64,000 nucleotides of DNA from Astropecten irregularis. Taxonomy: Eukaryota; Echinodermata; Asteroidea; Paxillosida; Astropectinidae. The notes under the pieces are model-generated. The model ran no database searches and was not told the DNA's origin. It saw only the letters and a list, made by a program, of their open reading frames with translations. This document shows, piece after piece, positions 8,114-39,346 of the stretch (position 1 is its first letter; each line of letters starts with the position of its first letter). The position numbers were made by a program, and so were the translations under genes. Where the stretch lies: NCBI GenBank assembly GCA_963971285.1, contig OZ020249.1, positions 9,052,001-9,116,000 on the forward strand, read 5' to 3'.

Positions 8114-8550
8114 AATAATTCTTAAAAGCCTTATGTTTTCAACAGAAATGGATTTGTTTATGTTTTGCAGATGATTTTTGCATCGTGTACAGCTCGAACG
8201 TACTTGTATCGCGTTCCTGGAATTCTCATACGGCAGATGCAACATTTAGTCACCATTGGTGTGCCACATCATTCTAACACTTGTTACGGCTGGAAATGCG
8301 TATACGGTAACCTTTGACCTTATTTTGATTTCCGTTAATTAACCCTAATTAAACGACATATTTCTGACTTTTTTCACGAAAACCTTCATCAAGCGTTCTA
8401 GAAATATTGTGTTATACTCTGCACTCTTCCTTTTTCTTTTTTTTGACTTTGAAACGGGCGTGTACCTTTAAGATGATGCTGGTTCTGCCCATAGAATCAA
8501 TCAAGGCACACCTTGTTTGGAGTTTGCACTCATTACAATCCGTGGTGGCC

Positions 8551-9490
8551 ATGATGGCGGTCATACATGTAGCAAAGAGTATCTTGACTGGATTCGTCCT
8601 ATTTCTAATCTTTGGTCCCAGCGTCCAAGCGGGAAAGATCCTAATGTCTGCGGGAGTGGATCAGTCGCACTACATCTTCAGTTCCAAGATCGGTCGTGAA
8701 TTGGTTCGGCAGGGTCACAAAGTCACCTTCCTCCTGAGCAGCTCCTACATACATCGCCTGAACGGCAGCGATGCTGACTGGTTCGACTTCCAGGTGTACA
8801 ATTCACCGTACAGCCCAAAGGAAATGAAGCAAATAGTGGATACTTTCGTCATGGATGCTCTGAACAGCACCTACCAGGGATGGCTGGGGTATCTGTCTCT
8901 CTGGGCCAAGAGGCTGTTTGGACTGGAGCCCAAAGAGAAAGAAGAGTTAAAACCCTCCAAGCGCACGTACAAGTATCTGTCATTTGAATGCAATGTTCTG
9001 CTTGGAGACGAGGAAGTGATAGGAAGACTAAGATACAGTGAGTTTGATCTTATGACCTACCTTTGACCTTGTCAATCCTTGCATGGCACTGGTTGCTCAA
9101 AAGTTGTCTTTTCGATTCGTTGTTATTAATGCCGGCCTCATGGCGTCTGGTTTCGTCGATCGCTGGGCCGATATACCAGTGAATACGGCACACGTCCCGC
9201 TGTTCATGAGCGGCTACACGGATACGATGACATTTTGGGAAAGGTTTTTGAACTCAATCAATAATTACATAGCTATATCGTTCATGACGGATCGGTTTGT
9301 GCTGGGACCGTTCTATGCGCTTAAGACTCAACACGGCATCCGTACGGACATGAACATGAGAGACACAATGCGCAGTGCGGAGATGTGGGTGGTCAATACG
9401 CACTTCGCAATGGACTTTCCGAGAGTTGTACCGTCAAATGTGATCATGGTAGGAGGCTTATCTACTGATGAACCGAAACCACTCAATAAG
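8551..9490 (+). CDS. UGT coding exon 1 (acceptor-binding domain)
   Basis: Encodes the signal peptide and acceptor half, ending ...KPLNK before GTAACA. The reading frame changes between about 9045 and 9070, where TTTGATCTT and TTTGACCTT flank ATGACCTACC. Dropping one 19-base copy would bring the expected FDLVNPCMALVAQKLS stretch into frame. Confidence 0.88.
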
Positions 9491-12400
9491 GTAACAATAA
9501 GCATTCAAACCCAGATGCACACTAGATCAAGTTTTTGAGAAAAAAAACAAATGATTAGGAATATTTGGTTGTCAACTAAAACGTGAAAAAAACCATCAGT
9601 TGTCCCCATGTGCACTCGGTCGGTTGCACGAGACACACCCATAATTAAACCTACCAACATCTTCCAATCTAACAGTTCAGGTACTTGTTTTCCTTGGCGT
9701 TTTGTTTCACCCACAATCCCCCAACCCCACGCGGGTTATGTGGCCCCTTGCCTCCCACCCCCAGTAACTCAACTTCCTAAAAATCTTTAAATGGGGGGGG
9801 GGGGGGGGGGGGGCATGGGATGCACGGCAAAGCTCGGAACCATTCTTCATCTTCGTCACGTGGCCCAAATTGCTTCGTTTCGTTTTCTGGATAAGTGTCG
9901 GTAGCGAAATAAGTCCCAAGCCTAGCCCCGTGGTTTTATAAAATGACCCATACACAATGCATTTACTTGAAGAGGCAAGTGTCCTTTTGATAAGCCACGC
10001 CTTCTATATTTTAATAGTATCATGGAAGTTATATTAATACCCGTTCGAATAACTTTAGTGACATGTGATCAAGATCCACCAATCAGATGGCGGGGATTTA
10101 TGCGGGCATGGTATAATAATTATTCTCAAGATCTCGATAACTTACATATGTTTGACTAACTACCATCGATCATTGATATAGGCCTACGTTTATTGCGCTA
10201 CACCTATGGGTTCGAATCCCACCTGAGCACGCAAACCTCCTCCACGTTAGTGAAGGGCAAGCCTAATTTGCATAATTCTATCTCTCCGAGGAAAAATCAT
10301 TAATAATAACATTGCGATATTGGATTGGACTTACCCTGCTGACCCCAGCTAGTTTAGTGGTCTATTGATATATGACATCTGCACTATAGGTAGGGTAAGA
10401 ATCCCAAAATGGGCCAGCGCGTGGGTTTTTCGTGTGTACTAAAAAGCACTGAGTATGCAATGCTCATCCACGTCGGTGAAAGGCAAGACTAGTTTGCATA
10501 TAAATAATGTTTATTATCATTATTTGTTCGGGTGGGGGAAGCACAAATCTGACCAATGGACCTATAACAAAGTAAATTTTTTTCACTGACGAAATTTCTT
10601 TTTCTTGATACACAAGGAGCTTGAAGATTTCTTCGAGGGATCGGGAGAGAATGGCGTGGTTATCTTCTCGTGGGGCTCAGTGGTTGAGGTTATGGATACT
10701 ACTATGACTGAGACTATAGCTGCAGCTATGGATAGGCTTCCACAGCGAGTATTATGGCGATACCCTGGCCGTACACCACCCAAGAAACTTGGCAGGAATA
10801 CTAAACTCATGTCGTGGATACCGCAGAATGATATTCTAGGTCAGTGAACATATCATATAGAGTATATTCATTGGCACTGCAAATAATGACTTAACATGAA
10901 TGATTTTCAGCATTATTTGTTTCAATCACTAGTGTAACTGGTCGTTGTGATGCGCTCCAATCTGTGCATTGCACAGTACATCCTGTGAAAAAAACAATGT
11001 TGTATTGGTAACCCGCCCGACCCAAAAATATGCCCCGACCGTAAACATTTTAAACCAAAAAAAAAATAATAATAATAAATAAATAAATAAAAATCGGGAA
11101 CAAAAAAAATCGCAAAATTCTGTGCAGATTCAAAGCTTAAAAGGAGTAAAAAATGGAAACCAGACTGGTTAAAGTTGTTATGTCATTTCTTGTCTTTATT
11201 TGACACGTCAAATACTGTGATATACAAGGGAAAAAGCATTTAATACCCCAGGAAAAAAAAATCCGCCAGCCCTACCCTATTTTCCAAACCTCCGTTACGC
11301 CAATACAACAATTTTTTTTATGGCCTAATTACACATTACCCTCATAAATCCCCATCATCTGATTGGTGGATCTTGGTCATAAGTTCCAATACATACTGCG
11401 AAGTTCTCTTCAACGGGTTTATATATTTTAATAGCATATTTTAGTCTCCTTTTTGCCCCCTTGTACAGGTAAACACATTTTCAGTACTGATTGAATGCTA
11501 CCCTTATCTAAATTCCTCAAAAAAGTTCTGCAATTCAAGTTTGTTTTCTTACTGATCAATGAGCGGTAAAACTGGTATCATTGGAAAGCGTGATTATTAT
11601 TCTTTACAACGATATATCATTTGCTATGCAAATGAAATAGAGGAATCTACAATTCTGATAATATGCAGCAATGTCACAACAACATTTGTTGTTTTCAGTG
11701 GTGAATTCCCAATCGTTTCGAAGATGGACTGAGTTGATGAATGGTGTTGATGCACTGATGCGTGAAAGAACGGTCCAAACATGGTGTATTCTCATTTGAA
11801 TTGTGCAACATTTCACTTCTGTCTTTGTCCTGCATTGCTCTTTATTACATAATCACAACAGATGACACATCTATCATTTTAAGGAGGAATAATGAGACTT
11901 TCAAATCACAAGTTTCAACTGTCATAGATCAGAAAAATATATATTAACCCTGAAACTTGAATTGCAAAATCTTTTTGAGGGGTATTTTTGTTTTGTCATA
12001 CCTGAAAGATAGGCAAAACCTTTGGTAGCCCATCTTTGACATATTTTTAAATGAATGGCTGACAATTCTTTCTAGGACACCCAAAGACCAAACTTTTGAT
12101 CTACCATGGGGGTAACAATGGTATGCTGGAGACCATGCACCACGGCGTCCCAGTAATAGCTGTACCACTGGTTGGTGACAATAAAGACTGTTCAACCCGG
12201 CTTGGAGCGCGTGGCATGGCAGAAATGATACCACTGGCTGAATTCACAGAAGACAAGCTTCATGAAACAGCCGTCCGCATGCTGAGCAATGACAGCAAAG
12301 GTACAGTTACAGAGAAATTATATTGACATTTTTTTGATTATTTTGAAACAAATGCATTTGCATATCAAACTTCCAATCTATAATGATTCCTCCTTATCTT

Positions 12401-21125: not shown

Positions 21126-21421
21126 AGGTTCAACGTTGTGCGTCAATGTGATTTCCCCACCCCAGCCACGGCAGCCCCCATTAGGTTCTCGTACGTACGA
21201 TTCTTGTATACTTGAATAATTTCTCGACTGATGATTTCAGGACAGACTGCCATGTATTTGTATATGTAGGTTTATTTGACGGTCTGTTTTAGTTTTACTT
21301 CATTGGATTTCATTGGAGATTACATATCTTATTAGCAACAAGCAACATCCTGTGGACAGCCTAATTCCAACTCGATACACCCGGCTTGGTTGGGCATAAT
21401 TAGACAGGATGTATGGTTTAC

Positions 21422-21682
21422 AGGGGCGGATCCGGGGGCGTGAGGGAGTGGGGCGCACGTCCCCCTTCTTCCAACCAAAATGAAAAGAAAAAAAAAGACA
21501 GAAGAAACAATAAAGAAGAAAGGAGAATAAACAATATAAAGGGAGGGAGAAAAGCTCAAAAAGCATACAAAAAGGGGGTTCAAAATTAGCCAGCTTTGAT
21601 CACCCCGAAATGCATCCGTCACTATTGAATTGGCGCATTTTATTTCCAGGCCACCACCCTTTGGAAATCCTGGATCCGATCC
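21422..21682. mobile_element. hAT-like MITE with 8-bp target duplication
   Basis: Flanked by TGGTTTAC on both sides (21414-21421 and 21683-21690). The ends, counting the shared C/T borders, are CAGGGGCGGATCC and GGATCCGATCCTG, inverted and hAT-like. The 261-bp body has purine-rich filler and no transposase. It is inserted in the 3' coding end of the NLR pseudogene. Confidence 0.8.
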
Positions 21683-21689
21683 TGGTTTA

Positions 21690-23170
21690 CCTCGCCCCAT
21701 CACGCAGGGGTATTCCAAACCTTGGTATCCAACGTCCTTGTCCCATCTGAGGTAAACCTTCATCAGCTGATGACAATCTTCAACGAGTTTGACGGTAAGC
21801 CATGCAGCCAGCCCATGGAATTCATTTTTACTCTCCAAAGTCACTATTTCACTTGGGAGCTCGATTAACAGGGACGTTTGCTTGCTCGAGTAGTTTCCAT
21901 TGATGTCTTAAACCTCTAACGATCACTCGGTCTTCTTGTTTTGCTCCGGCGAAGGATCGATAAGATTACCCCCATGTTGCCAATCCAAAAGCTTCTGGTG
22001 AAGGTTTGTCATACACCCCACGAGAAACAATTTGAAAGCTCAGAGTGAGGACAACAAACAGGACCACTGTATTATATCAGGTAAAGCCTCTGCTGATATT
22101 GTATTCGTAGGAACTGGGACAAGTCTTGCAGATTGACCAAGAATGGGAGGACATCTTTAAGAAGAAGCTTTGAGTGCTCAGAGGTCAAGCCTATTTCGCC
22201 AAGTACCAGCTGATTGAGGTCCTTTAATAGTTATGCCACTTTATGCCAATGTTAAATGTAGACTAAATCAACAATTACTTGCAGATTTAAAGCCTTTGGA
22301 AGAACGTTGCAAACAAATAAGGGTGCCTGTTCACTTTTCTGAAGACGCTGTAAGAATCGCTGCTGCCAGATGGATGCAAGACCCGTGCCCACATTACATT
22401 CATACCGGAGAACGTCAGCAAGGGCTAGAATCTTAAAAGCTTTGAATGACGAGCATGCATTTCGTAGAGACTTCAGGAAAACTTCAATAGAAGTACGTCA
22501 ACACCAGATAAATGGATACCAAGAGACCGCTAAACCCATTGCTTCACAATGAGCGAAATATCGAATCGTCGACATTGGTCGATGCAAAGAGTGTCCGATG
22601 GGAAGACAGACACATTTCTCAGTAACTTCATCAGACAGATCTTCTTGACAATGCGAGCCTGTCCTGTTCCCTCAGTGATGCCTCTGTTGAATGAACCAAG
22701 ACAAATTTCACACGAATTCACACTGCTTTGCTACATGCTCATGAACAGAATCGCAGCAAGTAGTTCAGACTGACAAATTTTTGCTGGTGAAATCCACCAA
22801 ATTCTTCTTGGAAAGTCTTATGAATGAAAGTAACTTTCTGCACTGCCCGGAGTTTACTTTGTGCCCTCTTCTCGCACATGGTGGCAATTTAGGAAGCAAT
22901 TCCTATGCCTTTTTCCTTTCTTAAACATGGACGCTCAATCATTAACTCTTGCCCAGGAAGCAGTCTTGCCCCTTTAGTGCTATACCTTACTCAGCGCCTT
23001 CATTAAAACCTTGAAGAATCTTCGAAGATCCTTTGAGCGTGTCAGGCAGTTTCAGATCTTCTGACCAGACGAAGCACGTGACCGACAACACAACTGGTAG
23101 TCGAGGCAGTTTATGAAGAACGCCATCCTACACTGAAACTTTGAAAAGCCATAAAAACCTTTTGTTTCTC
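21690..23170 (-). pseudogene. NLR pseudogene, paralogue of the adjacent NLR gene
   Basis: Minus strand. Bases 21690-22230 match the C-terminal LRR part of the intact gene (23720-24260), for instance the peptide VEDCHQLMKVYL against LKDCHQLQILNL and the DNA word GAGGTCAAGCCTAT against GAGGTCAAACCCAT. Bases 22780-23170 match the post-NACHT part (27945-28370), for example CCCGGAGTTTACTT and GACAACACAACTGGTAGTCGAGGCAG. The 171-bp LRR array and most of the NACHT are missing, and unrelated DNA fills 22235-22770. Stops and frame changes are frequent. Confidence 0.8.
22235..22770. other. Unrecognised insert in the NLR pseudogene
   Basis: This segment has no counterpart in the intact NLR. Plus-strand frames give peptides such as PLEERCKQIRVPVHF and KALNDEHAFRRDFRKTS, with several stops between them. 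They look like decayed coding sequence, but the family is not recognised. No terminal repeats were found. Confidence 0.3.
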
Positions 23171-23669: not shown

Positions 23670-26600
23670 CTATGGCTGGTGAACGTTAAGCCAGTAGGCG
23701 TTGGCCGTAGGATGCGACTGGATTCCTGGTTTATCTCCCAGCATCCGGGAGAGGTATTCCATACCTTGGTCTCCAACTGCGTCGTTGCGTCGGAGGTTTA
23801 ATATCTGCAGCTGATGACAATCTTTGAGTGCCTCAGCGAGTTTGACGGCATCAGAGTCGGTCAGGGCCATAAACTCCATGTTTACTTCCTTCAAGGTGTG
23901 CATTTCACTCAGGAGCTGGATTAACCGGGACGTGTGCTTGCCGAGGTAGTTTCCATGGATGTCTAAGACCTCTAATAAACACTCGTTCTTCTTGTTTTCC
24001 TCCGGCGAGGGATCGATGGGATTACCCCCTGTTGCAATTCCAGAAAGCTCTGGCGGAGGTTTGTCCACACACCCTGCAAGCTTCAAAGCTCGAAGTGAGG
24101 ATGAAGGAAGTGACCACTGTATCACATCAAGCAAAACGTCTGGTGATAATATGTTGTAGGAAAGGTCCAACCTCTGCAAATTGTTCAAGAATGGGAGCAC
24201 ATCATTAAGGAGAAGCACGATGTGCTCCGAGGTCAAACCCATATCGCTCAGTTCCAGCTCCTTGAGGTCCTTCAGCTGTGATAGAGCCTTCGTTATTTCC
24301 ATGATGGCGCCGCCGATGTCCTGTCCAGATAATCTAACAACTTGCAGGTGTGGAGCATTGGAAAGGATGTTACAAGTAGACGAGAGATCGGCCTGTATAC
24401 CAGGCTGCTCTATTTTTAAAAATCTCAACTGCTGGTCAGATCCACGAAACGGGGCAACATGGCATTGATCCCAGAGATTTTCATCCATATCCCTCAATCT
24501 TAATTCATCATGACGCAAAGACTGACATGGGTTATTTCTCAATAGAAGTACCTGAAGACTAGTAATGAACGCCGAGTCAGCTATACCCTTGACAATGGCA
24601 GGACATTCAATATCACTGACGAAAGGGAGCACAGGACCGAAAGCCAATTTCTGCAGTGATTTCATCCGATGGAGCGCCTCGACAAGATGAGCCTGGTCTG
24701 CCGGGTCTGTTTTTCCGTCCCTGATGTAATTGTCAAGATACAAATTCAAACTAGAAACATTCACGGCATAGCCCAGGATGGAGGTGACAAGGGGCCAGTC
24801 ATTCACTGTAACACCCTCGATAGCCAATTTCTGCAGTGACATCATTGGACGGATCGCCTTGACAAGTTGAGCCTGATCTGTTTCTCCTTTCTCAGAGCCT
24901 TGTTGAATCCTCAAAGACAAATCAGAAACATTTACGGCACTGCCCAGGATGGAGGCGACAAGGGGCCAGCCATTCACAGTAACACCACAGATAAACAATT
25001 TCTGGAGTGACCTCATTGGACAGATCGCCTTGACAGGTTGAGCCTGGTCTATTTCGCCTTCCGCTAAGTCATTGTCAAGATACAAATTCAAATCAGAAAC
25101 ATTCACGGCACTGCCCAGGATGGAGGTGACAAGGGGCCAGTCATTTACTGTAACATCATTGATAGCCAATTTCTGCAGTGACGTCATTGGACGGATCGCC
25201 TCGAGAATTTGAGCCTGGTCTGTTTTTCCTTTCACGAAGTCTTGCTGAAGACGCAAATTCAAATCAGAAACGGAAGCACTGCCCAGGATTGAGGTGACAA
25301 GAGGCCAGTCATTCACTGTAACACCATTGATAGCCAATTTCTGCAGTGACTTCATTAGACGGATCGCCACAAGAATTTGAGCCTGATCTGTTTTTTCTTC
25401 CGTGAAGTCTTGCGGAAGACTCAAATTCAAATCAGAAACATTCACGGCATTGCCCAGGATGGAGGTGACAAGGGGCCAGTCATTCACAGTAACACAGCGG
25501 ATAGCCAAGTTCTGCAGTGACTTCATTGGATGGATCGCCTTGACAAGTTGTGCTTGGTCTGTTGTTCCTTTCAAGAAGCATGGTTGAAGACTCAAATTCA
25601 AATCAGAAACATTCACGGCACTACCCAAGATGCAGGTGACAAGGGGCCAGTCATTCACAGTAACACCATTGATAGCCAAGTTCTGCAGTGACTTCATTGG
25701 ATGGATCGCCTTGACAAGTTGTGCTTGGTCTGTTTTTTCTTTCACGAAGCCTTCGGGTTGAACACTCAAATCCAAATCAGAAACATTCACGGCATTGCCC
25801 AGGATGGAGGTGACAAGGGGCCAGTCTTTTACTGTAACGTGATTAATAGCCAATTTCTGCAGTGACTCCATCGGACGGATCGCCTCAAGAATTTGAGCCT
25901 GATCTGTTTTTTCTTCCGTGAAGTCTTGTCTAAGACCCAAATTCAAATCAGAAACATTCACGGCATTGCCCAGGATGGAGGTGACAAGGGGCCAGTCATT
26001 CACTGTAGTACCATCGATAGTCAATTTCTGCAGTGCCGTCATCGGACGGATCGCCTTGACAAGTTGAGACTGGTCTGTTTTTCCTTTTACGAAGCCTTGT
26101 TGAAGACTCAAATACAAATCAGAAACATTCACGGCACTGCCCAGGATGGAGGTGACAAGGGGCCAGTCATTCACAGTAACACCATTGATAGCCAAGTTCT
26201 GCAGTGACTTCATTGGATGGATCGCCTTGACAAGTTGTGCTTGGTCTGTTGTTCCTTTCAAGAAGCATGGTTGAAGACTCAAATTCAAATCAGAAACATT
26301 CACGGCACTACCCAAGATGCAGGTGACAAGGGGCCAGTCATTCACAGTAACACCATTGATAGCCAAGTTCTGCAGTGACTTCACTGGATGGATCGCCTTG
26401 ACAAGTTGTGCTTGGTCTGTTTTTTCTTTCACGAAGCCTTCGAGTTGAACACTCAAATCCAAATCAGAAACATTCACGGCATTGCCCAGGATGGAGGTGA
26501 CAAGGGGCCAGTCTTTTACTGTAACGTGATTAATAGCCAAGTTCTGCAGTGACTTCATTGGATGGATCGCCTTGACAAGTTGTGCTTGGTCTGTTGTTCC

Positions 26601-29155
26601 TTTCAAGAAGCATGGTTGAAGACTCAAATTCAAATCAGAAACATTCACGGCACTACCCAAGATGCAGGTGACAAGGGGCCAGTCATTCACAGTAACACCA
26701 TTGATAGCCAAGTTCTGCAGTGACTTCATTGGATGGATCGCCTTGACAAGTTGTGCTTGGTCTGTTTTTTCTTTCACGAAGCCTTCGGGTTGAACACTCA
26801 AATCCAAATCAGAAACATTCACGGCATTGCCCAGGATGGAGGTGACAAGGGGCCAGTCTTTTACTGTAACGTGATTAATAGCCAATTTCTGCAGTGACTC
26901 CATCGGACGGATCGCCTCAAGAATTTGAGCCTGATCTGTTTTTTCTTCCGTGAAGTCTTGTCTAAGACCCAAATTCAAATCAGAAACATTCACGGCATTG
27001 CCCAGGATGGAGGTGACAAGGGGCCAGTCATTCACTGTAGTACCATCGATAGTCAATTTCTGCAGTGCCGTCATCGGACGGATCGCCTTGACAAGTTGAG
27101 ACTGGTCTGTTTTTCCTTTTACGAAGCCTTGTTGAAGACTCAAATTCAAATCAGAAACATTCACGGCACTGCCCAGAATGGAGGTGACAAGGGGCCAGTC
27201 ATTCACAGTAACACCAAAGATAGTCAATTTCTGCAGTGCCGTCATCGGACGGATCGCCTTGACAAGTTGAGACTGGTCTGTTTTTCCTTTTACGAAGCCT
27301 TGTTGAAGACTCAAATACAAATCAGAAACATTCACGGCACAGCCCAGGATGGAGGTGACAAGGGGCCAGTCATTCACAGTAACACCAAAGATAGTCAATT
27401 TCTGCAGTGCCGTCATCGGACGGATCGCCTTGACAAGTTGAGACTGGTCTGTTTTTCCTTTTACGAAGCCTTGTTGAAGACTCAAATCCAAATCAGAAAC
27501 ATTAACGGCATTGCACAGGATGGAGGTGACAACTGGCCAGTCATTCACATTAACACCACTGAGAACTAATTCCTTCAGCACGCTCCAAAATGCATCTGTT
27601 GTACCTTGGCAAATTGTTGACGACTTACAGGCACAATCGATCAGATATTTGAAAGCTGAGTTCAAGAAATCAGAGGAGCGGAATTGGAACTTCAGCCCAT
27701 GCCTTTCAATCAATGGCTTGGCGATGGTGTACAGTTCTCCAGAACCGGCTTCCAGATACATCAGAAGAAACGTGGAAAATGTGTCCCAACCAAACCTTGA
27801 ATTATCGGCTAGGCGTACAATGTGGGTCAATAGCATTCTCGCTGCTTTCACTGTCGCTCCTGAACAAAACCGCAGCAAGTATTCAAGACTCTGTATCTTT
27901 CTTTCTTCTATTTGAGTGAGGTAATGAGCGAATGATTTTTCGTCAGATTCGGCCAGGCTGGCCAAATAGAATCCAGCAAATGCTTCCTGCAAGGTTTTAT
28001 GGATGAAGTTAACTTTCTGCACGACCCGGAGTTTACTTCGTACCCTCTCCTTGGACAGGAAACCAAGTTCGCAAGCATTCTCAATGGCTTTGTCATTTTC
28101 AAATTCAGTTCGCTCAAACACTAACTTCTGCCCTGGAAGCAGCAGACCCCCCAGTGCTACCTTACCCACATCTTGTACCAGTGCATTCAGGATACTCTCT
28201 GAATATTTGTCGTCATAGCTACCAGGTTGTTTTGATTTCCCGAGGTGGCGATTGATGATGAAGAAAATAGCATCTCTGAAGAATTCTGTGAGCTTTTCAG
28301 GCAGTTTGCGCTCGTCTGACCAGATAAGGGACATGACCAACAACATCAATGGTAGTCGAGCCAGTTCATAATGAATGGGACTGTGCATCAAGAATTGATA
28401 CAGCTGCTGAGAAACCTCATCACCATCTGCTTGGAAAAAGCTTTCAATGTACTTCATAATTGCATCATCTGAGAAACCTTTGGATTTGACAAGAGTGAAC
28501 CGAGGGTTCAGCCCGCTAAGTGTGTCGACCATGTGGGGCCGCGTTGTCACAATAAGGGTGCAATCACAGAGAATTCTCCTTCTGATAACATCGATGATAT
28601 CGCCAACCTTTGGCAGCTGTGAACCAAATTCATCCACACCGTCAAAAATCATAAGGACATCGTGACCGTGTGTCTTCAGGTAATTTTCGAGACCTTTACG
28701 ACTCACCTGTATGTCTTTGGGAATGATCTGGTCGAAAATTGCTTCGGTCAGATCTGAAGTGCTCTCAAGTTCTCGCAGATTTAGGGCGACTAACAAGGGA
28801 AATTTTGACAGTGGTGATGCAGGATTCTGTAGTGACCAGTCGTACGCCAGCTTCGACGCAATGGTGGTTTTACCGCTTCCTGCTAACCCACTAAGTATTA
28901 TGTCCCTGACTTGTTCATCGTCTTCACGCTGAAGCTGCAATATATCCTCATAGGAGTGTATCTCACGCTGAAGCACTGCTGCACCCTTTCTCTCTTGCTT
29001 CTCGAGTGTAAGATCAACGAACATATCCTTCATCCAGCTGTAATCTGTTTTGAGCAAAGGATTTAAAGGCAGTTGACCCATTGTGTCTTTGTAGTATCGG
29101 ATAAACTCTTTGCGACAGAGGTCCAAGTTGAAGTCCTCTCCATGCGCAACAGGTT
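23670..29155 (-). CDS. NLR exon 6: NACHT ATPase and LRRs
   Basis: Acceptor CCAAATCAAACAG; a single 5.5-kb exon to the stop at 23670-23672. It begins EPVAHGEDFNLDL with a short helix-rich lead, then the NACHT with Walker A (about 28864-28890) and Walker B (about 28630-28660). The winged-helix and helical regions follow (28450-27600). The 17-unit LRR array comes next, then RI-type LRRs (LKELELSDMGLTSEHIVLLL, LQRLDLSYNILS, LLEVLDIHGNYLG). The stop follows ...AYWLNVHQP. An AATAAA run on the minus strand at about 23338-23352 could serve polyadenylation. Confidence 0.93.
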
Positions 29156-32100
29156 CTGTTTGATTTGGGAAGATAATCAAACATCACATTCAATTCAAGA
29201 AAACCAGCAATCCATTTCATATTACAGTCGCGATCGACAGCTTTCATTAGAGCCAGTGATGATTCTGATAGAGGCGTTTCTTGTGGTATACAGTGTGTCC
29301 CAGAAAAAAAACGAAATTTTAATTTCACTTTTGAATAGATAATATCACATACCTGGAAAGCTTATTTCCTCACCTTTCATTATTTTGATACCATATATTA
29401 TGATCCATACTTCACGCATGAGTGAGAAAAGACAATATGAAGCAAGGCTATCTAAAAGTATTTTATACAACGATATTTCACAACGATCACACAACGATCA
29501 CGTTTCTAGAAACTACATTTCCTTGCCTTTCATATGATGCCTCAGTCAAGAAAAATGAGCAAGGGATGACAGATATATCTGCCTTTGGATTGAAAATTTA
29601 TGTTTTTCAAATCCTTCGTTTATACCTGACCGATTTTCGAATAGATGCGGATCCATTATGTCCATTATGTTCACGTGCGTGAACCCCTGCCACTCTCCCA
29701 TCCCATTCATTTTGTCTAGGATTTATTCACTATGTCATGAACAAGTACGCATAATTTTGCATCAACATATAGCTTTGTCAGTGATATTTTTCGTTTTTAT
29801 TTGAGATGTCATACGTAAGGGCAGAAATTTTACTTTTTTACAGTAGGATTTTCCCGCCACATTGCCCCAAATGCTTTCATATCTATTAACTCGAAATTCA
29901 GATATTATTGAGATTTTTTTGTCTTTTAGTTGCGCTGCTTTCTTGTCTATTCTTTTTATTCACACATGTGTGAATTAAGTATGAACCTCAGGAGTGGTAT
30001 TTACTGGAAGAGAAGGAACTAAGCTTTGTAGATGTATAATTTATTAATCAAGATTGTGTGATTAATCATAACACGTTCATTTAATTTCCGCATCCTTTTA
30101 TGCAAAAAGCGGTCAGGTGTGAAAAATGCTTTGAAAAGAAAAACAGAGCGTGAAAATCCCCCCCCCCAAAAAAAAAAAACACCCCAACAAACAAACAAAC
30201 AAACAAACAAACAAGCAAAGACAAACAAGAAGGGGGGGGGTCAGAATGAAGCAAGATAGGTCTGTCACTAGCTCTATGAGTCTGCTGAACTGACTATTAA
30301 AATTGCACTGATCGAGTATAACGTTAGAACATGGAGGTAGAAATGCATGCTGTATTTATACAGAACTTAGAGTAAAACCAAACACCAAGCAATATTTTGA
30401 TCATGGTTAGACTAGATCCTTCTTCATGTTTCATAAGAAAAATTGAATCGCGTTTTCGCAAATTTCACGGGACTCTGATGTCCTATCAATGATATGAGTT
30501 CAAATTTTCACAGCCTTTAATATTTTTTTCAAAGTGCACATGATGGATTAGACATAAATAAGTGTTGTTCTATCACCAGATAAACCAGCGTACGTTGTAT
30601 AAAACCATTTAAACTCGGCGCAAGGAGATCTCTGGAATCTCCTCCCAGGGGATACTTGGAATGCAACTGGGCACCTGTCCTTGCTATGCTCCAACTGAAC
30701 AGGGCCAATCAGTTGCATAACATGCAGTATCATGTAGCATACTGACCAGACTGCATTCACATGGATGGGTTTGGAAGTGGGCGTAGACGCATTCACCAGC
30801 CGTTACATTGAATAAAAAAACGAAAAACCACAGGCTTTGGTGTAAAAAAAAAAAATACGCAACCGGCGTGTGGCCTTTGTATGCCAATTATGTACCTTAT
30901 TATGAATATTCATGATTTCCGCTGAAATGCAAAACAGGATGCCAAGCGGGCCGCGGGAGCGTCATATCACGGTTGGAGCTGCTGAAAATGTAAACAAACG
31001 CAAGACAGTCCGCGTCCAGACAGTTTCGGCCATAGACATTATACAAAACGTTTACATATGCATATCTATTGTCTCGGCGCGTGGTTTAACATGGTCTAGA
31101 TTGCTAGACGTTGTTATCGTTATGCGCGATAACCCGCCACCACGAGAGGGCGTATCATGACAATCCGCTAGCGACGCATGAGTGCACGACTACAAACTTG
31201 GACTTCGATAACTACGTCTAGACGATTTCTGAATTTTTACCCCCGAAAACGGGGGGGGGGGGGAGGGGAAACTAGTGCGCGTGCGCGATATTGTTGAATA
31301 ATTTGCGCTTCACACATGCGCACACATGTCACGTAAATTCAAAATAGCCAGGTAGGCCTACGCGGCGGGCCTCTGTTACTAGGCAAGGGCAACACACTAC
31401 ACGACTGACTTCTTCCGATCATTTCTCTCTCTTCTCTGTTTGACATTCGGGAATCTCTACAGGGGCCGGGGCTAGGTGTTGCTATGCTAGGAAAATAATA
31501 TTTTTTTAGAAATCCAGATGGCAGGTTAACGTAACGATAGACAGTACAGCTTCATACCAAGTCCCCCGGCCAAGCTGACTGTTCGGCCATTTTCCAGCAG
31601 GTTACAGTAATTATAAAGTTGTCGCTGTATAGCACAAAACGTGTAAACAGTGTAGTGCTACACCTGTCTCAACGGACGGGACCATTATTTAGCGCGCGTT
31701 GAGCCAACGGCCACGCCGTGAATCGCTTCGATACACGGTATACATACACCGCCAATCGACCTGTCTCAAGTTGAGTCGTCCCACCGGTCGACTTGTACTA
31801 ATTGTCTGACATTCAAATAGATTTCACGTATAAGCAAGACTTTCGGTTAGCGAAAAATTAATTCTAGGGTAACCGTGATTATTTTTGGCTAACGGGATAA
31901 CAAAGTAATCAGCATTCTGCAGAAATTTCTTGCTTACTGTTACCAACAAAAGTCTGCTACCGGACAAGGCCCTTATTAAGCGCGTTGAGCCAACTAAACG
32001 GGAACGCCGTGAATTGCTTCGATACACGGTATCTCACCGGTCGACCTGTCCTACCGGTCGACCTGTCTCAATGGTCGACCTGTCTCGATCTGTCTCACTG

Positions 32101-35100
32101 GTCAATCTCTCTCAAGTCGAGTTGTCCAACCGGTCGACTTGTCTGACTCCCCCCTCCCCCTTATTATGTACGTACACATTCTGTACAATCGAATATTCTG
32201 TACAATAAAAATAAAAAATAGGCCTACGTACGTAATATGTAAGGCAGCAAGGGGAGTCAGGGGATAAGATATATGAATATGCATCGTTTGGCTTTATTAT
32301 GCAGGCGAGTGTCATAAATTAGGCAAAGTAGGTGCGTGCGCATACGGTAAAAATTCAGATATCGTCTAGACGTAGTTATCGAAGTCGTGCACTCGTGCGT
32401 CGCTAGCGGATGGTCATGATACGCCCTCTCGTGGTGGCGGGTTATCACTCATAACGATAACTACGTCTAGCAATCTAGACTAGGTTTAACAGTCTGAGAT
32501 TCCGTGATTGTTGAATCGCAGACACAACATGGCGGCTACATTCAAAGCCATGCGATAGTGTCTCGTTTGTGGAAAGCTAGAGTTAATTACGCACCCACAA
32601 TTAATGTGTGTTATTTTAATACCATCAGCTTTCATGTTGTATTTACCATAATAGAAATAGATCGTGTGTACAGTATATAGTAACAGTGGCCAATGCCCTC
32701 ATGCATCAGGCATGTCCGGCTATGCGATGAATAGTATACTACCATGGCAACTATAGCAAGCAGTAGGCAAAACAGACATTATTTGAATGCCTCAAGACAT
32801 GCAGTACCACTATTCGCGGTCCCAAGACACCGGAACATAGTACATGTACGATACTGCATTAGCAGGGTACACAGAGGTCATTCGTTACAGGTCATCCATA
32901 TTCATTAGATACCGATTCAACTGGATTTTTGCTGGCGCTGATTGGTTCCTCCGGAAATCCGAAGGAAAAATAAAGAACAAGTTTAACAATTCATAGAAAA
33001 TTGCCAAGACTGTAATGCGAGCAACTTGCAAGCAATTGCTTCAAGCACAAGCAATTGCTTGTCAAGCAAAACATGAAGCTTAAGCAATTGCTTAAATCCG
33101 TATGCATAAACTTTTGCTTCTGCTTAAACCTTTTGCTTGCTATCAGTAAGCAGTTGCTTGAGGTTTCAACAATAAGGACGCCATGCCGGAACAAAAAACA
33201 TTCATGGGAGTACAAAGGCGGATTACGTAATATGTAACGTGGGTGGGGAGATGATCAGTACAGACTGCAAAACAGTCTTACATGGTCTACAGCAGGCAAA
33301 GACCACGATCATGACCTTTATTGGCAAAAAGGATGGATGAAAAATAAATAATGATACAAATGCCATCATGAAGACAAGAGCGAAAACAAAACACAAACGG
33401 AATAATTTGCGATAGGTCGCTTAAGCTATTTGTTCTCGATTTATTCTACTCCTGTACAACTTCAGGGTTTATATTAATATTATGAACATGATGACTAAAC
33501 GCAAACATAATATTCAGCAAGAGATCAATCAGGTATGACGGAGCTTTAACAAACGTAAGCAATTGCTCATAAGAGCAAGAAAAAAGTTCGTTTTATGCTT
33601 ATCTTTAAGCAGTTGCTTGCTGCCCGCAAGCAATAGCGTTCCGCACTAATGACGTCACACCATGCATGCACGCGCACACACACCCCCACTCACCACACGT
33701 TTGCATGGCCGGTTGCAATGTTTGTCTGAGGTTCGGTGCTATTTTTAGCGCATGCAGTGCGCAGCGCTATTGCTTGTGCTTACTAGCAAAAGTTTGAGCT
33801 TGCAAGCAATGGCTTATTTTTATGCATACGGATTCAAGTAAAAGGCTAGAAAAAGCAATTGCTACTTTTTATGCATACGGCCCTATGCCAACCCTTGCTC
33901 ATTATTTTTTCATTATTTTTTCCTGACTGACGCTTCATTTGGAAGGCAAGGAAATGTAGTTTCTAGGCATGTGATTGATTCTTTAAAATAAAAATATCAT
34001 TGTGCAAATAACTTTTTGATAGCCTTGCTTCATATTGTCTTTATTCACTCATGCGTGAAGTATGGATCATATGAATGGCATCAAATGAAACCTGAGGAAA
34101 TAAGCTATCCAGATATGTGTCATTTATTATTCAAAAGTGAAATTAAAATAGGATTAAACACTGACAAATCTCGTTTTCGGTTTTTCTTTTCTGAACACCC
34201 TGTATTATACAATAATGATTCGGCTGGTTACTCTTACCTTTGAGAATAGACGTAAGATCTGTCCTTCCGCAACTCTCCAGAGCCTTGCAGAGAGTGAGTG
34301 AAGCATCGCTTGCTCCATCCTGCTGCTGCTGCCATTTCACCAGCATCCGGAAGATCCTCTCCTCGGTTGTATGATAATCGGCCTCAATCCGATCAACCTC
34401 GTCCGCTCTGACACCCAAGTGCGTGGCCAACGTCTTCCACTCATGTCCAAGGTTTGAGGCGATACTCATCAGTGTCGTCTCACTCAGAGCAGCAGCAGCA
34501 GTAGCAGCAGCAGGTTCTGTTTGTTTTTAAAGAAAAATCAAGCATCATTATTGTTCCTTTAAAGAAAACCAACAATCGATTCCTATTTATAGTCGCGCTC
34601 GATCTAGCTACCAATTGAGCCAGTGATGATGTAATGATTCTAGTTTATTGGGTTTGTTTATATACGGCGTCATTTCTGTGAAAAAAAATAAAAACGATTA
34701 TTATATTTTAATTCATCGATCAGAATTTTAACTTGTGTCCATGCCATTTTTTTTTTGCATATTACATTCCTTTGGAGATACCCATTTTCAAAAAAATTAT
34801 GAGCAGAAATTGTATGTTTTCAGGATTTGATTTTTTGTCTATTGCATTGACTATCTCACTGGGTAAATTCTGACAAAATGTCAATACAAACCATTCATGT
34901 ATCGCCGAACAATTACTGATTGTGTTGAAAAGTCTATTTTGCTACTGTTACAAATGAGTGACAGTTGTGGTCATCTTAGTGGTGATCTGTGTATAGTGAA
35001 TGTGGGCGGCCAAGTCGAGGGGAGATTTTCAGATCACAACTAAGAATGTTAAGATGACCACCATTGTCACTCATTTGTAATTGCAGGAAAATTGACTTTT

Positions 35101-38100
35101 TCAGACAATAATAATAATAATAATAAACCACTTTTATATAGCGCAAATCACAATCAAACATGTCTCTAAGCGCTAATTACTCTGTGATGCATGAATGGAT
35201 TGCACTGAAATGTCCTCAGAATATGGCCTGGAGATATTGAATGCGATAGACTAAAAAGTCAAATACACTGTAGCTAAAACAGCTATAATCCATCTCAAAT
35301 TCGCTTTAGTCATCACGGTATCGTCCACCAGCTCTGCTTGTGTGTATATTTCATGGTAGCACCGAGAATTATTCATAAAACATAACACCGCTTGTGCAAA
35401 ATCCACGCTAACATTCTTCAATGCAAGTCAGACATCATTATAATAATAACGATACTTGATCTCAATGACCCCCCCCCCCCCCCAAGAGACAGGCTCGATT
35501 TTCATACCATTGGCCAGACTCGATCGGGCTTTAACTATCAGGTTTTACAATCTCACAGTGCAAAGTGAGTTTACCTTGGTGAGAGTCAGACTGCTCTGAT
35601 TCATTAGGAACGTTGCTTGGTGTAGGAACATCGTGCCCACTCGCACTTGATCCATGTGAACGTTGCTCGCTCGGTCCTGAAATCGAGATAGTAAAGCAGT
35701 ATCGTGAATCCAACAAGCCATTAATTGGTCGCTTACCCATGACATGTACCATCCAAAGAGACACGCACCTTAATGTGGTCGGAAGTGCGCATGTTTTACT
35801 TTTTACAATGGAATACACTAGGAGGACAACTTTTCTAAAGTTCCAACGGAAGTCTTCTAATATGAATATTAATTATTTGTATCCCAATGTTGCAATTCAG
35901 GTGTCCAGGCTTAAGATCCAATTACACCTCGCATCAATTTTGTTTAAAGCTCTAGTCCGGTGAGGTTTTTGAAAATCCAACAATGTACTTATCTCTGAAG
36001 GTATAATGTCAATGAAGACAGTGAAGAAAGAAAATGCTGTACTTTTTCCTCTGTATGTGAAACAATGCAGCGAAAAGTGAGGCCTACTGACGAGAGCTCA
36101 TCAAAAAACCTGGTACGCCATGACCTCATTGGACTAGACGTAGTAAAACGAATAGAGAAATATCGATTTTTCCCTCATGAATGACTATTTGAATAGTTTT
36201 CCTGTACTTACATAACAAGAACCAAACATTTATGGATTTCCTATCCCAGAAAAAGGACCACAAATTTGCCGATTTTGAGCCGGCGCCAAAGACATTTTTT
36301 GATAAAATGTGATCACGTGATTACCTAATTTGCATTAGTGATGGCGCGTGAAGGGGGCTCACCGACGGCTATCACGCATGCGTAGTCCCGCTGCCCGCCG
36401 GCGACTTTTGTACGTCATCAGTTTTCGCGGGAAAACTGCGTTCACGCATTGTATCAATATAATTATTGGACAGGGTATCACCACATACATATAAACGCAT
36501 AGACTGCCAGGTCCTATTCAAAACTAAAGGTTTTTTTCGTGATCTCCGCGGCGCCCGACTGAAGAGTTCCAGGCAAAACGAACATGAAGCCATTTTCCAA
36601 TTAAAGTTAGTTAAATTAGTTAGGCTGAAGTACTACAAAGTAATGGCATCACGTTTATACCTGAAAATGAATAGCTAGCGAGACAAAAAAAGCTCAAAAT
36701 CTTGGATTTGTTCTTATTACAGGACGCGCGTTGCGCGCCAAGCGCACGCAGTTTGCACGCGATTGACCGCTTTGCCATAGTTTTCAGAATCACAGATGAC
36801 TGCACACGCCTGGCCGTCTATGCGTTTATATGTCTATGGACCTTATCGAAGATAGCGCATAACTGGCTGTGCGCAAAGCACGCTGTGAAACACAGAGTTG
36901 CTAGGGCTGGTGATGAGTGCATCAAACGTACGGACATGAAATTTCAACTATAAATAAGTACTCAACTTTACATTGCTGGAACAAGTGACTCGACAGTAAC
37001 ATTCCATGGACCGTTGTGCAGCATCGCTATGTATAACAACTCAAAGCAAGGCTTTCTTCGAGGAAAAAAAACAACTTAAGTTATACGTGTACGTGTATCG
37101 ACGCGTGTGGTAAAACTTTAAAACCCACTGTTACCCACTGTCCTTTGCGCGCGCGCGCGCAGCGCTGAAAACAAGCTATCTTCGATAACGTCCCAACTAA
37201 AGTTGTATTTTTCCCTAGAAGAAAGCCTTGCTTTGAGTTGTTATACATAACGATGCTGCACAACGGTCCATGGAATGTTACTGTCGAGTCATTTGTTCCA
37301 GCGATGTAAAGTTGAGTACTTATTTATTGTTGAATGTTCATGTCCATACGTTTTATGCACTCAGCGCCAGCCCTAGCAACTCCAGAGTTTTCCAGAGTGC
37401 TTTGCGCACAGCTAGTTATGCGCTATCTTCGATAAGGTCCATGGGTATCACCTATCATGCATGTGTAGCGACCCCAGCGAGAAATTTACACAAATGTTAT
37501 CATACCATCCAGAAATAGGTCGAATTTCATTTAACGCGAAATATATTCTAGTTTGTAAAAATATGAAACTTCACAAATACATTTTTAATACACAAATAAC
37601 ACATTGGAAAACTCTCATCTGTTTTCAATATCCGTTTTAGTAGGTCTTGAACAAATTATAATATAAAGCTTTGCCGTGATTATATTAATTTCATCTGTCC
37701 GATGTTGTGATCGTTTGATGTATGCTTTACTTTTACCCATTTGTTTATCTTCAAATGTTCCAAACCAGTCTTTTTAAATTTCATAAATTTTCATTTTATT
37801 TCACGTATTATACTAGAGTCCTATAATCACAACAATCTAAATGTAATGGTTCATACTTTTTAGTCAGGCTTGCAACCGTCTTAGGACATTTTCAAACTAA
37901 AGCCAACTTGATACGAGTACAGAAGTCTACGAGTTGTATAAGGCCCAAGTCACAAAGGAAAATTTAAGTTAAAGTCAACACCTTTTTATTGTTGTTCCAA
38001 ATAGAAAAAAAAAGTCAACAAATTTTAATATAAATATTTTCAAAGTAAATTTTTCAGAGTCAGCAAATTTTAGAATATGGTCGAGTACATAATGAAAACT

Positions 38101-39346
38101 GCATGCGGAACCAGTTCTAATTAAAACTTTACCTGGTGTGTCCTTTTCATTAGCACCGCCCAGCAATCCTAGCGTGAGACGTAAATCTAAATTGGTATCT
38201 CGGTCAATGCTTTGATCTGCTAAGGAAAGTGCATCGCAAAGCTGTTTGTAAAGGAAATTAAAAACATTAAGTTCAAATTTCAATGTCAACAAGAATTGAA
38301 TCGATTGTCGTGAATACTGGAAGAAGAATATGTTTTAAATACATTATAGCAAAATAACAACTTCATTCTTACATATTCAAAGTATTTCTGTAACCTTTTT
38401 GTTGCTTTGTTAAATTACTCCGGAAAACAAGCTTGTGTGACGTAATCTCTGTGAATTGTTGACCTACCTCAAATCCACTCTTGGTAAAGAGATGCTGCTT
38501 TGTAGCTTCGATTCCGAGTTTGTCTTGTATCTTTTCCTTCACTGCTAATATCGAGGTGGACGATTGAAGTTGGAGACAGATAGTGGATGCCAACGGAGTA
38601 CGTATGAAAATCTGGGTGCTTACATTCTCAACCGTCTTCTCAACACTACAACCAAAGAAGCAAATAATCTCTTCTTTAGAAATGTTGCATGAACATGCTT
38701 GGATAAATGTGAACATGTTCTGCATACGCGGAATTGGTCAATATTAGTCTTAGTTTTGTAAATCTATTCCCGACGCTTACAGTAACTGTCCTAATTGAAG
38801 CAAAATGTAAGCGCTCACTGCTAATTGCTTTATGACAAATTCCACTGAGAGCGTAGGATAAAATGGCCGGTGGTATCGTATTAGAAAATCATTACGAGCC
38901 AACGCGGAGGAGTTAAAATGAGTACACAATTTAGCGGAAATACCGAGTTCTCCAAAAGAAAAGACATTCCACTTTCCAAAGTGCTGGAGAGGGAGCCAAA
39001 TAAATCTCATGTGATGTCATTAAATATGATTTATTGAGCTTCTGTACACCAAAATGCTCTCATACCTTTTTGACGAATCTTTACGGGCTTTTACAGTATG
39101 CTTTCGTTGATGAAACGATGTTTTCCCGTTGGTGTCTGGTTTCGATGCTCCGGCAAAATTCGTTTTTTGCATGGCGGAACTGTTCCTGGATCTCCGGACC
39201 TTTTTCGTCTTGTTGACCATCCTCGCCTGTGAATGGTCATAGACAACTCGAGCAACCCTCAAGGCTTCCTCCATGTCAGCGTAGGTCCTGGGTGCCTTCA
39301 TGCCTGGTGTTTCCCCGTAACTCATTTCAATGTCAAACTGAGGCAT
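23670..39346 (-). CDS. NLR gene: ubiquitin-like, Death, NACHT, LRR (six exons)
   Basis: Minus-strand exons: 39346-39066, 38645-38468, 38241-38133, 35676-35575, 34516-34238 and 29155-23670. All have GT/AG borders. Intron phases are 2, 0, 1, 1, 1 and the joined length is 6435 bases, exactly 2145 codons. Residues 1-93 are basic with no known domain; about 104-182 are ubiquitin-like (QIFIRTP, VKEKIQDKLGI, ending GLLGG); 190-223 are a Ser/Pro linker; 236-316 a Death domain; Walker A GLAGSGKTT at about 406-414 and Walker B LMIFDGVDEF at about 483-492 mark the NACHT. From about 850 to 1830 there are 17 tandem 57-residue LRR units, then canonical LRRs. NLRs are cytosolic sensors that oligomerise through NACHT and signal through the N-terminal domain. 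The link of the ubiquitin-like exons to the rest is inferred from strand, order and phase. Confidence 0.75.
24640..27560 (-). repeat. 171-bp LRR-coding tandem array, 17 units
   Basis: Unit of 171 bp (57 residues); for example GAGGTGACAAGGGGCCAG recurs at 27181 and 27352. The peptide core is VNDWPLVTSILGNAVNVSDL. Two or three copies have one extra codon (QPEGF or QLEGF) and one lacks a residue pair. Units 4-5-6 and 10-11-12 form near-identical trimers offset by 1032 bp, and units 6, 8 and 12 are the same at protein level, which shows recent higher-order duplication or conversion. Confidence 0.95.
29285..29565 (-). mobile_element. Intronic mobile element copy A (mariner-like end)
   Basis: Bases 29288-29565 are the inverted counterpart of 33890-34205. 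Shared words include GATCCATACTTCACGCATGAGTGA, of which 20 bases are ATCCATACTTCACGCATGAG, and the complement of GAAATGTAGTTTCTAGG. The outer end is TATACAGTGTGTCCCAGAAAA, close to ends seen in some Tc1/mariner relatives. It lies in NLR intron 5, near the NACHT exon. Confidence 0.6.
29570..31080. other. NLR intron 5, part without recognised features
   Basis: Intronic sequence with homopolymer and (CAAA)n runs at 30150-30240. No exon or domain was recognised on either strand. Confidence 0.45.
31092..32482. mobile_element. MULE-like element with perfect 9-bp target duplication
   Basis: GGTTTAACA flanks both ends (31083-31091 and 32483-32491). The termini are T(G/A)GTCTAGATTGCTAGACGT, inverted, and the inverted similarity continues for about 150 bp, with words such as CGATAACTACGTCTAGACGA and GAGGGCGTATCATGA. 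A 9-bp duplication and long terminal inverted repeats are typical of Mutator-like elements. No transposase is encoded in the 1.39-kb body, so it is non-autonomous. It lies in NLR intron 5. Confidence 0.8.
31670..32150. repeat. ACCGGTCGACCTGTCTC repeats inside the MULE-like element
   Basis: Two related blocks (31670-31812 and 31958-32148) each contain CGCGTTGAGCCAAC, TCGATACACGGTAT and several copies of the 17-bp ACCGGTCGACCTGTCTC unit. Each ends near GTCTGAC. The same unit forms an inverted-repeat element at 47602-47855, so this is a nested insertion of that family, duplicated once. Confidence 0.65.
33000..33875. repeat. AAGCAATTGCTT palindrome cluster
   Basis: Many perfect or near copies of AAGCAATTGCTT and AAGCAGTTGCTTG at 33027-33165 and 33555-33870, with GTATGCATAAA and its relative TTATGCATACGG at the borders of the blocks (33101, 33818, 33866). 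The layout suggests two or three copies of a short inverted-repeat element. It is intronic. Confidence 0.6.
33890..34205 (+). mobile_element. Intronic mobile element copy B, inverted to copy A
   Basis: Same element as 29285-29565 in opposite orientation, ending CTGAACACCCTGTATTATA only about 30 bases from the Death exon donor. The two inverted copies bracket most of intron 5 and could pair in the transcript or support inversion of the DNA between them. Confidence 0.6.
34238..34516 (-). CDS. NLR exon 5: Death domain
   Basis: Acceptor AAAAACAAACAG, donor AAAG/GTAAGA. After an alanine run coded by a (CAG/CTG)-type microsatellite, the peptide LMSIASNLGHEWKTLATHLG, then VDRIEADYHTTEERIFRMLVKW and SCGRTDLTSILK, shows the six-helix Death pattern including the conserved Trp. 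Death domains form homotypic signalling assemblies. Phase is 1 on both sides, so it is a symmetric exon. Confidence 0.85.
34930..35105. mobile_element. Small foldback element in NLR intron 4
   Basis: TTACAAATGAGTGACAGTTG and its inverted partner (ending GTCACTCATTTGTAA) bracket about 70 bp. Pairing extends outward through AAAGTC(A/T)ATTTT on the left and AAAATTGACTTTT on the right. It is followed directly by an (AAT)n run and a TTTTATATAGCGC...CTCTAAGCGCT motif at 35130-35175. Confidence 0.6.
35575..35676 (-). CDS. NLR exon 4: Ser/Pro linker
   Basis: A 102-base exon between TCGATTTCAG and GTAAAC, encoding GPSEQRSHGSSASGHDVPTP and similar low-complexity sequence. It links the ubiquitin-like and Death exons in phase 1 on both sides, so it could be skipped or duplicated without a frame change. 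The exon is small and the call rests on splice sites and phase alone. Confidence 0.55.
36835..37442. mobile_element. Foldback element, about 240-bp arms, in NLR intron 3
   Basis: Left end ATGGACCTTATCGAAGATAG and right end CTATCTTCGATAAGGTCCAT are perfect inverted copies. The arms (36837-37077 and 37200-37441) remain alike throughout, for example CAACTCAAAGCAAGGC and its complement, with a loop containing a CG-alternating run at 37147-37162. There is no coding capacity. No clear target duplication. Confidence 0.8.
38133..38241 (-). CDS. NLR exon 3: ubiquitin-like domain, second half
   Basis: Acceptor CCTTTACAAACAG, donor CCAG/GTAAAG. The peptide LSLADQSIDRDTNLDLRL followed by TLGLLGG continues the fold started in exon 2, matching the T-L-S-D-Y-x-I and final L-R-G-G region of ubiquitin. 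Seven further residues (ANEKDTP) follow the Gly-Gly, so the C-terminus is internal here. Confidence 0.75.
38468..38645 (-). CDS. NLR exon 2: ubiquitin-like domain, first half
   Basis: Acceptor CTTTGGTTGTAG, donor GAG/GTAGGT. After a lead VEKTVENVS, the peptide TQIFIRTPLASTICLQLQSS follows the beta-hairpin start of ubiquitin. VKEKIQDKLGIEATKQHLF follows the helix and the segment after it, including the K-x-K-I-Q-D-K-x-G-I pattern. The exon ends in phase 0 within the loop that precedes the ubiquitin L-x-D turn. Confidence 0.78.
39066..39346 (-). CDS. NLR exon 1: basic N-terminal region
   Basis: Starts MPQFDIEMSYGETPGMK; an in-frame stop lies 15 bases upstream, which supports this ATG. It ends after ...KARKDSSK plus two bases at a GTATGA donor. 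The composition is strongly basic (clusters such as TKKVRRSR and HQRKHTVKARK), so nuclear or RNA/DNA contact is possible. No domain is recognised. The two leftover bases (AG) are completed by T of exon 2, giving Ser. Confidence 0.6.

Follow-up and report, generated by a model that had tools for sequence, protein, structure and literature searches.

On balance, the window probably contains a real echinoderm NLR gene, in which an N-terminal segment encoded by exon 1 is followed by an integral ubiquitin-like (UBL) domain, a linker, a Death domain, a NACHT domain and LRRs, and in which the UBL would serve for docking. The window is the whole 64,000-nucleotide stretch analysed (C12:9052001-9116000) from the genome of Astropecten irregularis, which comprises 475.7 Mb in 168 contigs. 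A preliminary description had placed the UBL, Death, NACHT and LRR parts in one gene, an arrangement that gains support here from its paralogs, its splice sites, the compatible frames of its open exons and the constraint on it.

The six-exon structure proposed in that description was borne out in its coordinates, its borders, its phases and its length. The exons lie on the minus strand from 39346 to 23670, have AG/GT at every internal border and add up to 6435 nt, that is, 2145 codons including the stop, or 2144 amino acids; exons 2-6 begin in phases 2,0,1,1,1. Exon 1 (39066-39346, 281 nt) is without a Pfam domain. Exon 2 (38468-38645, 178 nt) encodes approximately the N-terminal two thirds of the UBL, and exon 3 (38133-38241, 109 nt) encodes the final third, terminating in GLLGG, the Gly-Gly of which (Gly181-Gly182) is encoded at 38160-38155. 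A linker rich in Ser, Pro and Glu follows in exon 4 (35575-35676, 102 nt, phase 1-1), and the Death domain occupies exon 5 (34238-34516, 279 nt, phase 1-1). Exon 6 (23670-29155, 5486 nt) carries the NACHT domain, an intervening region, the LRRs and the stop codon.

The Pfam models matched the protein in the order ubiquitin, Death, NACHT, LRR, so that the UBL sits N-terminal of the Death domain. The HMM check suggested earlier for the UBL was run, and Pfam PF00240 scored over its cut-off: residues 106-175 reached 26.8 bits within an 859-aa N-terminal piece, near the cut-off of 25.4, and the UBL scanned alone reached 31.8 bits. Searched against PDB with phmmer, the UBL matched single ubiquitin chains at approximately 1e-9 to 1e-10, and the best 60 of 289 and of 219 PDB matches were ubiquitin chains, fusions or engineered variants. 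The Death domain (PF00531, residues 240-317, 58.2 bits) and the NACHT NTPase domain (PF05729, residues 402-559, 71.1 bits; 28428-28901 on the minus strand) both scored over their Pfam cut-offs, and the translation of the latter contains GLAGSGKTT, DGVDEF and TTRP, which we take to be NACHT motifs, Walker A and B among them. In exon 6, the LRR_14 and R13L1-DRL21 models scored over cut-off and LRR_6 just under it; the LRR part holds a tandem repeat (24741-27562, minus strand) of 16.5 copies of a 171-bp (57-aa) unit with 86% matches. Two near-cut-off matches of the LRR repeats to DAM-like phage and GH66 families were taken as spurious. The gene has sequence features by which an NLR is recognised, namely a NACHT domain bearing both Walker motifs (A and B), C-terminal LRRs and a signalling domain of the Death superfamily, and by Pfam its NACHT-LRR part is without a SAMD9-like NTPase region.

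Several other features were seen in the window and the assembly. A frame at 21335-21907 resembles, by eye, a degraded copy of the last LRRs of the NLR and is perhaps a duplicate 3' end; it had no Pfam match. Reverse-transcriptase frames (PF00078) at 3826-5430 on the minus strand and 56166-56933 on the plus strand are retroelement remains, and frames like UDP-glucuronosyltransferase (PF00201) lie at 8368-9535 on the plus strand. Elsewhere in the assembly, COX1 matches were found in three places, on C131 (no TGA), C168 (10 TGA) and C25 (7 TGA). The match at C131:32162-33484 has a 552-aa open frame without TGA and is perhaps from a bacterial contig in the assembly. In the COX1 of C168, a contig of 16,335 bp taken as the mitochondrion, AAA stands for Asn, AGA for Ser and ATA for Ile, which is the echinoderm code, if the positions that we assume to be conserved are so; that code is also used by flatworms, but the sequence resembles those of deuterostomes, in favour of an echinoderm.

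The UBL belongs to a cassette that recurs across the genome. A search with the UBL gave 65 matches, which besides exon 2 were mostly exon-3 pieces and polyubiquitin. Matches to exon 2, grouped manually, fell in 16 places, 14 of them (window included) at 73-97% identity and two, on C9, degraded (59% and 42%), these and the other genome counts being lower bounds. The 14 places where exon 1 was found all have a UBL exon-2 copy as partner; 13 of them adjoin exon 2, and one lies approximately 10.6 kb upstream of the C12:20.244 copy. Cassettes of exons 1-3 are present as 14 intact copies, ten before Death-NACHT genes and four before SAMD9-like STAND genes, and two degraded ones. The degraded pair, at C9:3.427 and 3.517 Mb, has indels in exon 2 and a well-kept exon 3, and a TRADD-N match lies 13 kb downstream of the cassette at 3.517 Mb. 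All ten NLR-linked cassettes, located on C12 at 1.373, 1.395, 3.353, 9.090 (the window), 9.135, 9.246 and 10.616 Mb, on C136, and on C9 at 6.619 and 6.830 Mb, stand on the same strand as, and upstream of, a Death exon and then a NACHT exon.

A UBL cassette, with the Death exon between, accordingly lies upstream of at least 10 of the at least 43 NACHT matches in the genome. Death exons at least 83% identical to that of the window occur in 12 genes (14 Death exons), ten of which have the cassette. The other two, C12:9.819 and C12:10.630, are closely related Death-NACHT genes for which the genome search gave no UBL match, so that the UBL is not required for this type of NLR. A genome scan for unsplit ubiquitin, which is blind to split UBLs, gave 48 matches, none of them within 1 Mb of a NACHT match. 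At C21:8495189-8501560, a single open frame encodes polyubiquitin as 28 units joined head to tail. A UBL search of viral contigs gave four pattern matches and no confirmed relative.

The second class of receptor that carries the cassette consists of SAMD9-like genes, with cassettes at C12:20.199, 20.217 and 20.244 Mb and at C25:11.43 Mb; the genes themselves lie at C12:20.20-20.27 Mb and C25:11.42 Mb. The large exon downstream of the cassette that was searched with phmmer matched human SAMD9 at 5e-94. When the NTPase part of the SAMD9-like exon was searched against the genome, four places were found at 83-100% identity, a search by which distant relatives could be missed, and each of the four has a UBL cassette upstream, the one at C12:20.244 being approximately 29 kb away. 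Exons for TRADD-N and SAM-like domains, and beyond them the large exon, follow three of the four cassettes; the one TRADD-N exon scanned matched PF20694 at 36.9 bits, and the SAM-like exons were called by eye, the one scanned giving no Pfam match. The stretch downstream of C12:20.244, part of which is masked, showed a SAM-like exon only. Across the genome, seven of 11 TRADD-N matches are on the same strand as, and downstream of, a UBL cassette, one of these cassettes being a degraded copy on C9.

By simple consensus, the end of the UBL and the borders of the TRADD-N and SAMD9 exons are phase-1 candidates, as in the NLRs; no TRADD-N donor was found at C25 by the same simple splice consensus. 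Because phase-1 borders occur in both classes, the cassette could be swapped between them without loss of frame. An unrooted tree built on exon 1 together with intron 1 unites the SAMD9-linked cassettes, of which it included three, in a single group (support 0.999), which is consistent with a single transfer of the cassette between the receptor classes. The exon-2 tree is weakly resolved, and there the SAMD9-linked copies do not cluster.

It is possible in principle that exons 1-4 form a separate small UBL gene and that the NLR begins at the Death or NACHT exon. The exon structure is read here from genomic DNA, the symmetrical phase-1 exons would permit other joins, and the two related NLR genes without a UBL also fit such a division. 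We nevertheless regard this explanation as very improbable, since all 14 intact cassettes lie on the same strand as, and upstream of, a STAND gene (the 29-kb case included), since three paralogs keep the frame across exon 4 and on into the Death and NACHT exons, and since at C12:1.395 the stretch from exon 1 to the start of NACHT measures approximately 3.5 kb.

The paralogs on which this judgement depends were compared exon by exon at the nine other NLR-linked loci, a comparison that covered exon 6 in six of them, exon 4 in eight and, by alignment, the beginning of exon 5 in three. All borders compared were AG/GT, with two exceptions. At C12:10.616, exon 2 measures 180 nt from its AG, 2 nt longer than in the window, and the gene joined as modelled is frame-shifted and runs into stops in exon 2; at C12:1.373, one of two Death donors reads GTCA, still a GT, although a weak site. 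Four paralogs carry open UBL-Death-NACHT exons in compatible frame. In three of them (C12:1.373, C9:6.619 and C9:6.830), splicing gives a UBL-Death-NACHT frame that stays open from exon 1 to the end of the part of NACHT examined. The Death exons were selected here with a filter for an open frame and a motif, and of the two pairs of exon 4 and Death exon at C12:1.373 the second was taken; the joins of the two C9 loci fit within approximately 4 kb. In the fourth, C12:1.395, the frame is open without the Death exon, and the Death exon itself is intact, being 264 nt long and bordered by AG and GTAAG. Two Death exons each were seen at C12:1.373 and C12:9.246, and at C12:3.353, 9.135 and 9.246 the NACHT exon is further away and linked by position only.

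The same copies also bear on the start of the protein. The frame of the window is open from Met1 (MPQF, 39346), as the first-read gene model had it, but this methionine is kept in just four of 14 exon-1 copies and was rejected as the start of the family in favour of a methionine 3-4 residues before RTYAD, which all 14 copies have, at two alternative codon positions. Its counterpart in the window is Met16 (39301-39299), from which the frame is likewise open, and several exon-1 copies are frame-shifted upstream of this point. Judging from the alignment, Met16 (39301) is more likely than Met1 to be the start codon.

The exons of the cassette are better conserved than the introns between them. Among 13 copies, an average that leaves out the two degraded copies and C12:20.244 (whose exon 1 is approximately 10 kb away), mean pairwise identity is 96% in exon 2, 91% in exon 3 and 87% in exon 1, and in the introns of the same copies it is 77, 73 and 60%, the third intron being covered in part. 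The ten NLR-linked copies give 97, 94 and 89% for exons 2, 3 and 1, and 83, 77 and 74% for the introns, a divergence of 17-26%. Identity falls sharply at exon edges (nine copies), and exon 2 DNA of the window is 94-99% identical to that of the 13 other intact copies. A chance pairing of exons as the origin of the UBL was rejected on the strength of its recurrence, its kept borders and this conservation of exons over introns.

In nine NLR-linked genes (C12:9.135 left out), mean dN and dS were 0.093 and 0.208 for exon 1, 0.028 and 0.040 for exon 2, 0.051 and 0.132 for exon 3, and 0.061 and 0.082 for the Death exon. The resulting ratios by exon, 0.38-0.75, are not low, because the synonymous sites of exon 2 are also unusually conserved. 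Protein selection alone is therefore insufficient as an explanation, and gene conversion between copies or constraint at the nucleotide level may contribute to the conservation of exon 2.

This degree of conservation has to be set against a reading in which the UBL is an integrated decoy that mimics a target of microbial effectors within the ubiquitin pathway, so that its alteration trips the receptor. Integrated decoys occur in plant NLRs, and the presence of one cassette on two separate STAND classes resembles them; the Gly-Gly and the core of the UBL, moreover, are kept. A decoy would be expected to diversify, however, yet the UBL is the most conserved part compared, exon 2 exceeding even the Death exon, and there is no known effector. 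We consider a decoy decidedly unlikely.

The function that we favour is a different one, in which the UBL most likely serves as a non-covalent docking module for a dedicated partner, common to the two receptor classes. Residues are numbered here as we take them to be in ubiquitin, where L8, I44, H68 and V70 presumably form the reading surface. In the phmmer alignment these four are replaced by P, F, D and R, K48 by F, K63 by R, R72 by G and R74 by L, and the terminal Gly75-Gly76 is kept. From these replacements the domain is ubiquitin-like rather than ubiquitin. The suggestion that the receptor signals through ubiquitin-reading partners stands as a possibility, but with the reading surface altered a standard ubiquitin receptor is unlikely to be the partner. 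In the mechanism proposed, the LRRs would sense and the NACHT domain would oligomerise, and the clustering would gather many N-terminal UBLs and Death domains. The UBL would then dock non-covalently with a partner used by NLR and SAMD9-like receptors alike, for example a ubiquitin-pathway enzyme or a proteasome adaptor, and homotypic assembly would come from the Death domain or from SAM/TRADD-N.

The conserved end of the UBL raises the alternative of a cleavable fusion, in which a deubiquitinase would cut after Gly182 to free the UBL, perhaps for conjugation in the manner of ISG15, from a Death-NACHT-LRR receptor. Ubiquitin is itself made as N-terminal fusions, and GLLGG is invariant in ten of the ten copies aligned (of 14), the residue directly after it being A, V, T or R, or G in C12:1.373. 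However, the R72 and R74 of ubiquitin, which E1 and many deubiquitinases use, are those replaced here by G and L, with two extra residues in front. In addition, approximately 90-100 residues precede the UBL, whereas classic ubiquitin fusions begin at Met1, and the homogenisation of the exons makes the persistence of the Gly-Gly partly ambiguous as evidence. Release by cleavage thus seems rather unlikely. A broader proposal combines elements of docking and release, and we offer it tentatively: the single cassette could have become, in this lineage of echinoderms, a common N-terminal port of the NLR and SAMD9-like classes, which would converge on one dedicated UBL partner or conjugation pathway, possibly releasing free UBL after the Gly-Gly when activated.

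The window gene shares its Death-NACHT core with NLRs of the Death-NACHT-LRR type in sea urchin, amphioxus and sea cucumber, from which it differs in the extra N-terminal UBL. Neither 'ubiquit' nor 'UBQ' occurs in the main text of PMC2575513, and the available portion of PMC8913654 does not mention such a domain. The nearest precedent, as far as the accessible part of that article goes, is a UBQ label in a figure legend, which lists this domain among the NLR architectures of the sponge Dysidea avara (PMC12909245); NLRs with UBQ in that sponge may be a precedent, the legend label being what points to it. Apart from this label, no UBL-NLR was recognised in the open literature searched, insofar as its texts were available, and the sharing of a UBL by NLR and SAMD9 genes is undescribed in the portions of the open literature compared.

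Other known systems share single elements with the genes described here. The window gene is an NLR, unlike the STAND-like proteins of the SAMD9 family; compared with that family as it appears in the available part of PMC5445408, the SAMD9-like exons here are also preceded by the UBL cassette, with TRADD-N and SAM-like exons. The words 'ubiquitin' and 'TRADD' are absent from the main text of that paper, which, in the part available, gives the SAM of the family as restricted to vertebrates. TRADD-N of marine invertebrates is found in fusions with polyubiquitin and with domains of the ubiquitin system (PMC8195603), and as described in the accessible sections of that article, these TRADD-N immune proteins are, like the UBL genes here, modular and lineage-specific immune fusions; UBL-Death-NACHT-LRR is not reported in those sections. 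Sacsin, according to the portion of PMC3710099 at hand, is a giant protein whose N terminus holds a ubiquitin-like domain and which, in some animals, has a Death domain, but it carries HSP90-like and DnaJ modules, the window gene being a STAND receptor instead.

In summary, the UBL cassette stands at the start of ten NLR genes and before all four SAMD9-like genes found, which suggests a direct physical link between these two classes of STAND receptors and the ubiquitin system. To our knowledge, the N-terminal adaptors with which animal NLRs have been described form a small set. The UBL, which spans approximately 78 residues and has a defined end at the Gly-Gly, provides a handle on NLR signalling in echinoderms.
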